Shown in pieces: positions 17,585-21,505 of a DNA stretch of 35,381 bases. The DNA comes from Fretibacterium sp. (GTDB lineage Bacteria > Synergistota > Synergistia > Synergistales > Aminobacteriaceae), in NCBI GenBank assembly GCA_024681935.1, contig JAIKZX010000225.1:1-35381 (forward strand), in the 5' to 3' direction. Position numbers and translations under genes: made by a program. Each line of letters begins with the position of its first letter. The stretch's first letter is position 1. The notes under the pieces were generated by a model, which saw nothing but the letters and a program-made list of their open reading frames with translations, made no database searches and was not told where the DNA came from.

Positions 17585-17660
17585 TGGCTCCACGACCAGG
17601 ACTCGAACCTGGAACCTAGTGATTAACAGTCACCCGCTCTGCCGATTGAGCTATCGTGGA
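17585..17660 (-). tRNA. tRNA-Asn (GTT), CCA encoded
   Basis: TCCACGATAGCTCAATCGGCAGAGCGGGTGACTGTTAATCACTAGGTTCCAGGTTCGAGTCCTGGTCGTGGAGCCA folds as a full cloverleaf with anticodon GTT. Confidence 0.97.
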
Positions 17661-17768
17661 ACATAACAGAGGGAATTATACCCCCTTCCCCAACCCCTGT
17701 CAACGTTAGGATTATAAAAGCGAAAATTTTTTCAGTGCCACTTCATTTCATTTTCTTAAGTTAAATGA

Positions 17769-17774: not shown

Positions 17775-17859
17775 TTCAGAATTATCAGGGATGCGTAGGG
17801 AAAAGGAATCTGCGCGCTTCCTGGGCTTTGAAATAACAACAATCACTTAGGAGGTTTCG

Positions 17860-18690
17860 ATGATGAAAGGGAACAGAAGGATATGGACGCTGTGTTTTGC
17901 GCTGGCGGCCCTTTTTTCCGTAACGTTGTGCGCCGCCGCGGAGGAGAAGCTGACGGGCGTGGAGCAGCTCAAGACGTCGTATCTGGCGGCCCAGCGCGGC
18001 ACGGTGGGGCAGTTTATCGCTGAGGATCTGCTGGGCGACAAAAAGGGTGAATTGCTGACGACCTATGAGAAGTATGTGGATGCCATCGCCTCGCTCCGGC
18101 AGGGCAAGGTCCGTGCCGTGGTGATGGACGAGCTGCCTGCCAAACGTTTCCTGAACGAGGTGAAAGGGCTGGCAATCATGAGTGAAGCCCTGTCGGAGGA
18201 GAGCTACGCCATTGGCTTCAGGAAGGGCAACGCGGAGCTTCTCGGCCAGGTGAACAAGGCGCTCTCTGAGCTCAAGGCGGACGGGAGCCTTGCGGCCATA
18301 TTCGATAAATATCTCAACGGCGACGTTGCGTCTGTCAGCCCTGAGAAGATTGACATGAATAAGGGGGCTAAGGGCGGTCTCCTCGTCGTGGGGACCGAAG
18401 CCGGTTTTGCCCCCTATGAGCTGAAGGTGGGCAGCGGCTATATCGGCATCGATATCGAGATGTGCGCGGCCATCGCAAAAAAACTGGACCGGGTGCTGGT
18501 CATCGAGAACATGAACTTTGACGCGCTGCCCATGGCTGTGGCTACAGGCAAGGTCGACATGATCTGCGCCGGCATCACCGTCACGGAGGAGCGCAAGGAA
18601 AACATGGACTTCTCAGATAATTATGTGGAGGGAGCCCGGCAGGTCGCGGTAGTGCGCGCGGATGACTATCAGGCTCCGGCAGGGAAGTAG
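17860..18690 (+). CDS. Family-3 (polar amino acid) ABC substrate-binding protein, circularly permuted domain order
   Basis: Signal peptide, then the C-terminal-type half (LAAQRGTVGQFIAEDLLGDKKGELLTTYEKYVDAIASLRQGKVRAVVMDELPA...YAIGFRKGNAELLGQVNKALSELKADGSLAAIFDKYL), then the N-terminal-type half (GGLLVVGTEAGFAPYELKVGSGYIGIDIEMCAAIAKKL...VDMICAGITVTEERKENMDFSDNY). Confidence 0.92.
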   Translation: MMKGNRRIWTLCFALAALFSVTLCAAAEEKLTGVEQLKTSYLAAQRGTVGQFIAEDLLGDKKGELLTTYEKYVDAIASLRQGKVRAVVMDELPAKRFLNEVKGLAIMSEALSEESYAIGFRKGNAELLGQVNKALSELKADGSLAAIFDKYLNGDVASVSPEKIDMNKGAKGGLLVVGTEAGFAPYELKVGSGYIGIDIEMCAAIAKKLDRVLVIENMNFDALPMAVATGKVDMICAGITVTEERKENMDFSDNYVEGARQVAVVRADDYQAPAGK

Positions 18691-18691
18691 G

Positions 18692-19504
18692 ATGAGAGCA
18701 GACATAAATTCGAGACGGGGCGTGGGGCGCGGGGACGTTATCCTTGCGGTTTGCGCCGCCGCTTTGTTGTTCCTTCTGTTCCGCTCCGGTTTCTTCACAG
18801 AGGCGGCGTGGGATGATTTCAGCCGGCGTTTCTACCAGAACTTCGTCAAAGACCGGCGTTACATGATGCTTGTAGACGGCTTGAAGGCCACGCTGTTCAT
18901 GACGGCATTCTCAACGCTTATCGGGCTGGCTGTCGGACTCATTCTGAGCGTCATCCGCGTGGCGTACAAGGGGGGCGTTCCCATCCGCCTTCTCAATGCC
19001 TTTGCGGAGTGCTACATCACCGTCCTGCGGGGAACACCGGCCATGGTGCAGCTTTTGATCTGGAACTTCACCATCTTCGCCTCGGCCCGGGAGCTCAACA
19101 CGCAGTACATCGCCATCCTGGCCTTTGGGCTCAACTCCGGGGCCTATGTGGCGGAAATATTTCGCGGGGGCATTGAGTCCATTGACCCCGGCCAGATGGA
19201 GGCCGGGCGTTCGCTGGGCCTGTCCTACGGCACGTCCATGCGTTTCATCGTCCTGCCGCAAGCCCTGCGCAATGTTGTTCCCATGCTGTTCAACGAATTT
19301 ATCGCCCTGCTGAAGGAGACGTCCGTTGCGGGGTACATTGGCATCGACGACCTGACCCGTGCCGGGCAGAACATCCAGGCCCTGACCCTGGAGCACTCTC
19401 AGCCCCTGGTGATGGTGGCCATTATCTATCTGGTGATTGTCCTGTTCCTGACGGGTGTGGTGCGCCGGCTGGAACAGTGGCTGAGCCGCGGCAGAAGGGG
19501 GTAG
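18692..19504 (+). CDS. Polar amino acid ABC transporter permease (HisMQ/GlnP type)
   Basis: [27 protein letters not shown]..., [68 protein letters not shown] (EAA loop). Confidence 0.95.
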
Positions 19505-19509
19505 GAACA

Positions 19510-20259
19510 ATGGACGATATGAAAACCCCGATGATCGAGGTCAGGGATCTTCGCAAGGTCTTTGGCGAGCTGACGGTTCTGAATGGAATCAGCACAGGCA
19601 TCTGCAGGGGCGAGAAGGTGGCTGTGATTGGCCCCTCCGGTTCCGGCAAGAGCACGTTCCTGCGCTGTCTGAACCGCATGGAGGAGCCCACCTCCGGCGT
19701 CATTCGCTTCAAGGGGGAGGACATCACCGCCCCCGGCTGCGACATCGACCAGATCCGCAGCCATGTGGGGATGGTCTTCCAGCACTTTAACCTCTTTCCG
19801 CACCTCACGGTGCGCCGCAATATCACCCTGGCCCCGACGCAGCTTAAGATTATGGACCAGGCGAGGGCAGACAAACGGGCTGAAGAGCTGCTGGCCCGCG
19901 TGGGACTGGCAGACAAGGTGGACGAATGGCCGGAGCGCCTTTCCGGCGGACAGAAACAGCGTGTCGCCATTGCCCGCGCTCTGGCGATGGACCCGGACGT
20001 TCTTCTCTTCGACGAGCCGACCAGCGCGCTGGATCCGGAGATGATCGGCGAGGTGCTGGCGGTTATGAAGGAGCTGGCCGACGAGGGAATGACAATGTAC
20101 CTCGTTACTCATGAAATGGGCTTTGCCCGCGAGGTGGCTGACCGCGTGCTCTTCATGGACGGGGGGCTTATCGCCGAGGAGGGCACGCCGGAGGAAGTCT
20201 TCGATCACCCTCGTGAACCCCGCACGGTGGAGTTCCTCTCCAAGGTACTGAGACGCTGA
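19510..20259 (+). CDS. Polar amino acid ABC transporter ATP-binding protein (GlnQ/HisP type)
   Basis: Walker [10 protein letters not shown], signature [41 protein letters not shown]-loop [21 protein letters not shown]. Confidence 0.96.
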
Positions 20260-20290: not shown

Positions 20291-21505
20291 ATGGGAGACT
20301 TTGCTGAATGCCTGGCTCCGGAAGAGGCAAAACATTATATTGATAAGGTTGTGGCGTGGCGGCGGGACATTCACCGCCACCCGGAATTGAGTCAGCAGGA
20401 GGAGAGGACTTCGGCCCTCGTCACGGAGGTCCTGACGGGTCTGGGCCTGGAGGTGCGGAGCAACGTGGGGGGATATGGGGTCGTCGGTCTGCTGCGTGGA
20501 AAAACGGGCGGCAGGACCGTGGGACTGAGGGCGGACATGGACGCCCTGCCCCTGAAGGAGGAGACGGGCCTGCCCTACGCTTCGGAGTCCGAGGGCGTCA
20601 TGCACGCCTGTGGACACGACACCCACACGGCCATGCTGCTGGGTACGGCCTGTGCTCTGGCGGACAGACGGGAGAAAATTTTGGGGAATGTGAAGTTCCT
20701 GTTCCAGCCCGCTGAGGAGCTGAACCCGATTGGCGGCGCCCCGGGGATGATTGCCGGCGGTGCGCTGGAGGAGCCCCATGTGGATGCGCTTTTCGCGCTG
20801 CACGTCTGGCCCCGCTTTACGACGGGAACAGTGGCCATGAAGCCGGGGCCCCAGATGGGGGCGTCAGACCGGCTTTTCCTGACAGTGCACGGCAAGTCCG
20901 CCCACGGCTCCGCGCCGGACCAGGGAATTGACGCGGTCATGATCGCCTCCCAGGTGGTCTCAGGGCTCCAGAGCATCGTGAGCCGCAGCGTCTCCCCTCT
21001 GGATTCTGCAGTTGTTACGATTGGCACCATCAAAGGCGGCTGGCGCTACAACGTCATTCCCGACCGCGTGGAAATGGAGGGCACGGTCCGCACGCTCCGT
21101 GAGGGAACCCAGGCGCTCATGCCGGAGCTCATCACCCGCACGGCTAAGGGCATAGCGGAGTCGCTGGGGGGGAGCTGTGAGGTGAAGTACGTCAAGGGCT
21201 ATCCCCCGATGGTGAATGACCCCGCACTGTTTGAGCTGGCAGCGAGGGCCGTGCGGCGGGCCATGGGGCCGGACGCACTGGTTGTGGCCGAACAGCCGGA
21301 ACTGGGGGCGGAGGATTTCGCATTCTTCGCGCGGGAACGCCCCTCGGTGATGGGCTGGCTGGGATGCCGCCCGAAAGGGGCACGTCCTGAGGACACCGCC
21401 GTTCTGCACAACACACGCTTCTGTCCGGACGAAGGCTGTTTCCCCTACGGGATGAGCTTCCTGGCTTCCTGCGCGCTGGGTTTTCTGAACAGCCCCGCCT
21501 CCTGA
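20291..21505 (+). CDS. M20-family metallohydrolase (N-acyl-amino-acid amidohydrolase / hippurate hydrolase type)
   Basis: WRRDIHRHPELSQQEERTSALV, HACGHDTHTAMLLG, GAEDFAFFARERPSVMGWLG. Confidence 0.93.
   Translation: MGDFAECLAPEEAKHYIDKVVAWRRDIHRHPELSQQEERTSALVTEVLTGLGLEVRSNVGGYGVVGLLRGKTGGRTVGLRADMDALPLKEETGLPYASESEGVMHACGHDTHTAMLLGTACALADRREKILGNVKFLFQPAEELNPIGGAPGMIAGGALEEPHVDALFALHVWPRFTTGTVAMKPGPQMGASDRLFLTVHGKSAHGSAPDQGIDAVMIASQVVSGLQSIVSRSVSPLDSAVVTIGTIKGGWRYNVIPDRVEMEGTVRTLREGTQALMPELITRTAKGIAESLGGSCEVKYVKGYPPMVNDPALFELAARAVRRAMGPDALVVAEQPELGAEDFAFFARERPSVMGWLGCRPKGARPEDTAVLHNTRFCPDEGCFPYGMSFLASCALGFLNSPAS

Follow-up and report, generated by a model that had tools for sequence, protein, structure and literature searches.

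The closest described systems are GlnH, HisJ, ArgT/LAO-BP and ArtJ (SBP_bac_3; type II, cluster F). The protein considered here is encoded at positions 17860-18690 of a 35,381-nt contig of Fretibacterium sp. (the window, meaning the whole stretch of DNA analysed). It shares with these receptors the sequence family, the ligand residues and the operon partners, and is distinct from them in that its halves are swapped, with new termini at hinge 1. A man-made counterpart is cpLAO-BP, obtained from E. coli LAO-BP by opening one inter-lobe linker and bridging the termini with (GGS)4; it still binds lysine with a Kd of ~107 µM (PMC5087393, after Okada et al. 2009), its affinity being ~36-fold lower after permutation (PMC5087393). 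Like the 17860 protein, cpLAO-BP belongs to this family and has one of its two inter-lobe linkers cut and a short linker bridging the old termini; it differs in being engineered, in the linker used, in its reduced affinity and in that transport has not been shown for it.

Permuted SBPs are already known from nature. TpMglB-2 (Tp0684) of Treponema pallidum (PMC4990184) is likewise a natural permuted SBP with an ABC importer and widespread relatives, but it represents a type I, cluster B sugar-binding family with another fold class and another cut site. Membership of the TpMglB-2-like group (type Ic / cluster Bc) was not met by the 17860 protein, whose Pfam and NCBIfam hits were only SBP_bac_3 and its relatives. 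Permutation among type II-like SBPs is likewise represented by OpuAC/ProX as compared with molybdate-binding proteins and CysB (CPSARST, PMC2395249), a structure-found case at <24% identity, whereas the SBP_bac_3 case involves several topologies in one subfamily and operon type. Neither Pfam nor NCBIfam gave a hit of the 17860 protein to the OpuAC/glycine-betaine family, and Foldseek matched OpuAC/ProX structures to its model with a TM of only 0.41-0.45. GlnPQ (SBD1-SBD2, 6h30; PMC8025302) resembles the array-forming relatives described below in that a GlnP-type TMD carries fused SBP_bac_3 domains in tandem; its order is (N-C)2-TMD, whereas that of the relatives is (C-N)1-8-TMD. The open-access literature searched, outside of which most subscription journals lie, yielded no account of SBP_bac_3 proteins permuted in nature, nor of an operon family holding several topologies, nor of permuted arrays this long. 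Given the type I and glycine-betaine/molybdate precedents, it is the SBP_bac_3 case that appears to be new.

Results

Domain order of the permuted receptor

The 17860 protein matches SBP_bac_3 (PF00497) with an E value of 6.6e-32 and 110.5 bits, against a gathering cut-off of 26.4. The match is split into two stretches, the best of which places residues 175-269 on profile positions 1-94. The N-to-C order of the profile is thus not met, and the protein is a family member by sequence and a variant by topology. Purpose-built HMMs for the separate halves located the C-half at 37-154 and then the N-half at 176-266 (Table 1), numbered on the stop-to-stop reading frame that starts 3 aa upstream of the 276-aa protein. 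The C-half comprises lobe 2 together with the C-terminal helices of lobe 1; the N-half comprises the main part of lobe 1, with the hinge strand at its end, and carries Phe183, Phe220, Thr240 and Arg245. After reordering, the protein is complete in alignment with E. coli GlnH, HisJ, ArgT and ArtJ. Its chain begins just upstream of the lobe 2 segment LxxVEQLKxxxLAAQRGT and opens after the hinge strand (...RQVAVVRADDYQAPAGK), and a stretch of ~20 residues runs from what was the C-terminal helix (...AAIFDKY) to what was the first strand (LLVVGTEAGFAPYE). Every part is present once, in rotated order, on a continuous chain with a single confident fold, as is required of a circular permutant. The 17860 protein is a natural circular permutation of SBP_bac_3, cut at the first inter-lobe hinge.

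Table 1. Positions of the features described (L numbers denote loci fetched from other contigs or genomes)
Feature	Position	Strand	Basis or remark
Permuted amino-acid SBP, type A	17860..18690	+	whole gene, 276 aa, ATG, single frame
Shine-Dalgarno AGGAGG of permuted SBP	17849..17854	+	direct sequence reading; 5 nt upstream of ATG
Signal peptide, ~residues 1-26 (...SVTLCAAA/EEK)	17860..17937	+	hydrophobic N-terminus; cleavage site inferred
Canonical C-half, now first, residues 30-154	17947..18321	+	half-HMM E 1e-40; GlnH/HisJ alignment
Asp90 codon, within C-half	18127-18129	+	
Linker, old C-terminus to old N-terminus, ~residues 152-172, LNGDVASVSPEKIDMNKGAKG	18322..18375	+	AF2: well ordered
Canonical N-half, now last, residues 173-270	18376..18669	+	half-HMM E 8e-38; alignment
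Arg245 codon, within N-half	18592-18594	+	
Cognate GlnP-type permease, 270 aa, BPD_transp_1	18692..19504	+	PF00528 E 1.6e-22; GlnP model E 1.7e-39; conserved operon
Cognate GlnQ-type ATPase	19510..20259	+	PF00005 E 1.2e-39; polar amino-acid ATPase models
M20 amidohydrolase/carboxypeptidase-like gene	20291..21505	+	downstream of importer
Permuted SBP type B, orphan paralog	3379..4200	-	same cut
tRNA gene	17588-17660	-	tRNA-Asn by anticodon reading
Perfect TTGACA-N17-TATAAT promoter match	17675-17703	-	just upstream of the tRNA gene
Helix-turn-helix-like protein	31744-32508	-	Lys-rich tail of repeated near-identical blocks (SPAVSSKGTPKSQAIKPGKKDTKREEKL...)
Window-type operon	L087:1796-4391	+	MAG labelled Clostridiaceae
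Divergent permuted SBPs, ~280-320 aa	L176:4315-5142	-	
	L177:3818-4765	+	
	L188, L191		
Giant fused importers, 6-8 permuted units	L163:5161-11922	+	
	L173:4641-11423	+	
	L156, L159, L161, L166		
CNCN-permease-ATPase chains	L262:4083-7484	+	1134-1210 aa
	L263-L267, L269		
P2 proteins	L231:241-1113	+	
	L238:1228-2115	-	
	L299:4577-5380	-	
	L301:4621-5448	-	
	L229:2345-3214	-	
	L233:1351-2307	+	
	L302-L321		
P1b proteins	L226:1447-2325	-	
	L229:1432-2298	-	
	L230:1447-2325	-	

Operon context, paralog and distribution

The SBP stop is separated from the permease start by 1 nt, and the permease stop from the ATPase start by 5 nt. The order permuted SBP-permease-ATPase is conserved in ~40 fetched Synergistaceae-type loci, in which no canonical SBP was detected; the permease accompanies type A in nearly every fetched locus, as does the ATPase where the contig is long enough. 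The M20 gene is kept in place in two same-genus loci (L047, L048), a third (L049) ending shortly past the ATPase gene.

The type B paralog is 57% identical to the 17860 protein, with the same half order and linker site, and is conserved across loci, yet lacks a linked permease of its own. Dozens of independent assemblies show the swapped order too, as does the complete sequence of Fretibacterium fastidiosum, NC_021038 (a type-B relative, L122). By approximate count, ~50 of the 188 phylum genomes encode full-length permuted singles of the window type. The original prediction had claimed a swapped half order for the 17860 protein, the same order and linker position in a diverged 3379-4200 copy, and a normal GlnP-type permease and GlnQ-type ATPase directly downstream. 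All three claims held, by Pfam and the half-HMMs for the receptors (standard domain order was not found) and by PF00528, PF00005 and the conserved operon for the transporter.

Separately, the window-type operon of the MAG labelled Clostridiaceae (L087) groups with Synergistota, and a mislabelled bin or recent transfer is its likely explanation. Divergent permuted SBPs also occur in the window's own and related genomes. In most of them the Asp/Arg clamp for amino acids is gone, making a changed ligand or role likely. In plasmid searches for a named permuted SBP, the rows listed gave only two-piece, canonical-looking full-cover hits.

Ligand clamp, predicted fold and selection

Arg245 and Asp90 align with R75 and D157 of GlnH, and the alpha-amino-acid clamp of SBP_bac_3 (Arg on lobe 1, Asp on lobe 2) is thus met. 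As general background, which also supplies the GlnH numbering, the Asp of GlnBP holds the ligand ammonium and the Arg its carboxylate. Both residues are retained in 86 of 89 permuted singles on the Synergistota side and in all 29 from Clostridia. That the ligand is an amino acid is inferred, and no narrower assignment is made, there being no structure, binding or transport data.

AF2, run on the monomer only with 40 homologues as input, predicted one well-ordered fold, linker included (pLDDT 91.2, pTM 0.83). Of the PDB chains that the sequence search listed, only the GlnPQ tandem SBD1-SBD2 (6h30) was colinear across the linker, and the same tandem was the best structural match of the model in Foldseek. 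That aligner, which is sequential, superimposed one half on GlnBP at 1.0 Å over 83 columns, and none of its listed matches was full-length with TM(query) >0.45. Ortholog dN/dS of 0.06-0.19 shows the 17860 protein to be under purifying selection.

Phylogeny of receptors and permeases

In the SBP tree, built on reordered units, the Synergistota types A and B and a third subfamily form one clade (11 rows, support 100/100), which makes the permutation ancestral within these Synergistota; a single event for these three subfamilies is well supported. Its closest outside relatives, canonical L125/L243/L248, join the clade at 100/98, and among the Clostridia in the tree the different topologies are intermingled. 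An AU test rejected a single clade for all hinge-cut singles with L226/L229/L230 (the P1b group) included (p 3.2e-8), and again without that group (p 0.02); each result is one test on ~210 columns, with hypotheses chosen after the tree was seen. On Synergistota alone, without Clostridia data, single origin was not rejected (p 0.114). Overall, several permutation events, or reversions, are the likely history.

In the permease tree, the permeases of permuted SBPs, except L236, fall in one clade (support 98) together with permeases of canonical SBPs, and that of the window lies nearest to permeases that accompany hinge-cut SBPs in Clostridia (SH-aLRT 94, not starred). Since the two trees place the window lineage beside different neighbours, the histories disagree in detail and the origin is unsettled.

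The original prediction of an ancestral permutation therefore held for the Synergistota clade, and not for permuted SBPs overall, which are not one clade. The check it proposed for a single origin indicated that cuts were seemingly made more than once, or undone, the nearest outside relatives being canonical; the check for an exclusive clade of cognate permeases found none. Its claim that the permutation is stable, functional and no artefact is supported as regards inheritance and constraint (by the 100/100 clade and the dN/dS values), function being inferred. Docking onto a conventional translocator, as it had presumed, is compatible with the mixing of permeases and likewise remains an inference.

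Fused arrays and further topologies

The window's own genome encodes a 799-aa protein of order C-N-C-N-permease (G000:C37, L162), and related Synergistaceae carry (C-N)n-permease proteins that reach eight permuted units and 2261 aa (L163, L173). The C-to-N spacing in arrays is 19.6 ± 1.2 aa and the N-to-C spacing mostly 6 to 31 aa; the first being tight and the second variable, C-N is understood as the folding unit. The alternative pairing of N_i with C_i+1 is disfavoured by these linker-length statistics. In the giant importers, where a single permease domain is preceded by 6-8 tandem permuted binding domains, the usual Asp or Arg is missing from many units, so their ligands may differ.

The Clostridia order to which L125's genome belongs has many free-standing C-N SBPs in SBP-permease-ATPase operons. 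Single-chain CNCN-permease-ATPase importers (L262-L267, L269) and canonical NCNC-permeases (L227, L228, L239) were also found. In another permutation, P2, the cut lies within lobe 2, giving the order C'' - N - C'. It was read in 26 proteins, six cases first and then 20 of 20 further candidates (L302-L321), the latter 20 all beside permease and ATPase genes; the trailing C' piece fell below the HMM threshold in 3 of the 20 (L304, L306, L313). At one locus (L300) a P2 gene is the direct neighbour of a hinge-cut one. P1b proteins, hinge-cut ~20 residues further on, share a 100/99 clade with P2 proteins.

Discussion

Based on the evidence computed for domain order, conservation, operon, selection and predicted fold, the 17860 gene is very likely (probability ~0.9) a naturally permuted periplasmic amino-acid-binding protein of SBP_bac_3 (type II, cluster F) serving the adjacent importer; ligand class, docking, transport and route of origin are inferred. 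The ~20-aa linker joins the old termini, which both lie on lobe 1, and the chain is instead open at the first inter-lobe hinge, so that the polypeptide runs through lobe 2, the C-terminal helices of lobe 1, the linker, the rest of lobe 1 and the hinge strand. The three-dimensional fold, the ligand cleft and the transporter-facing surfaces would be nearly unchanged. Closure on an L-amino acid would bring Arg245 to the carboxylate and Asp90 to the ammonium, with the side chain surrounded by aromatics 183 and 220, and the amino acid would be handed to the GlnP-like permease, powered by the GlnQ-like ATPase. Because LAO-BP, with both termini on one lobe, tolerates an inter-lobe cut and joined ends, the protein is by analogy most likely an ordinary Venus-flytrap SBP; because the engineered analogue lost ~36-fold in affinity, natural permutants may bind differently. 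The permutation predates the split of the A, B and third subfamilies of these Synergistota. Its simplest putative origin is tandem duplication to N-C-N-C, as in GlnPQ and the NCNC-permeases, with the outer halves then being lost.

Of the rival explanations, a single ancient permutation survives best and remains possible. It derives all hinge-cut SBPs (Synergistota, Clostridia, fused arrays) from one ancestor and takes nested canonical relatives as reversions or tree error. The cut region and linker length are alike, single origin is not rejected without Clostridia data, and window-type permeases group with permeases of Clostridia hinge-cut SBPs. Against it stand both AU rejections with Clostridia data, the canonical sister of the Synergistota clade, linker motifs that vary between groups, and the shifted cut of P1b. 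Domain-swapped dimers, in which the N-half of one chain closes on the C-half of another in place of a permuted monomer, are unlikely. They are not excluded by a monomer run of AF2, and domain swapping is known in TmArgBP of the same family; however, the monomer is confident across the linker, the tight C-to-N spacing in arrays marks C-N as a folding unit, and both canonical termini lie on one lobe, as stated for LAO-BP (PMC5087393). A sensor or enzyme in place of a transport receptor has in its favour that cyclohexadienyl dehydratase and MltF are SBP_bac_3 relatives and that type B lacks a linked permease, but is very unlikely for type A, given its near-constant company of permease and, where the contig reaches, ATPase. 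An assembly, binning or annotation artefact, suggested by the fragmented, MAG-like assembly of 226 contigs, is all but excluded by purifying selection and by the recurrence of this order across dozens of independent assemblies as well as in complete NC_021038.

With a natural permutant serving its importer as the preferred reading, a bolder one is also likely, namely that one SBP_bac_3 lineage of Clostridia and Synergistota has used circular permutation repeatedly as an evolutionary switch. Canonical, hinge-cut (P1), P1b and P2 receptors with the same clamp share one SBP-permease-ATPase operon type, sometimes adjacent to each other, and in this reading a further permuted lineage gave rise to permease-fused proteins with as many as eight permuted binding domains and to CNCN-permease-ATPase chains.

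Lastly, annotation that is blind to domain order hides permuted SBPs. Nature's design is broadly that of the engineers' LAO-BP sensors, with an inter-lobe cut and the old ends linked, and a ~20-aa linker may work better. The tandem arrays suggest a route by which permutants originate, from N-C-N-C arrays minus their outer halves. As canonical and rotated receptors occur with the same partners in related genomes, natural near-pairs make it possible to measure how chain order affects folding, affinity, docking and the motion of the hinge. Natural circular permutants are usually isolated cases, far apart in evolution; here the halves were apparently swapped separately at more than one place in relatives, and a common receptor fold can therefore be re-wired repeatedly by evolution.
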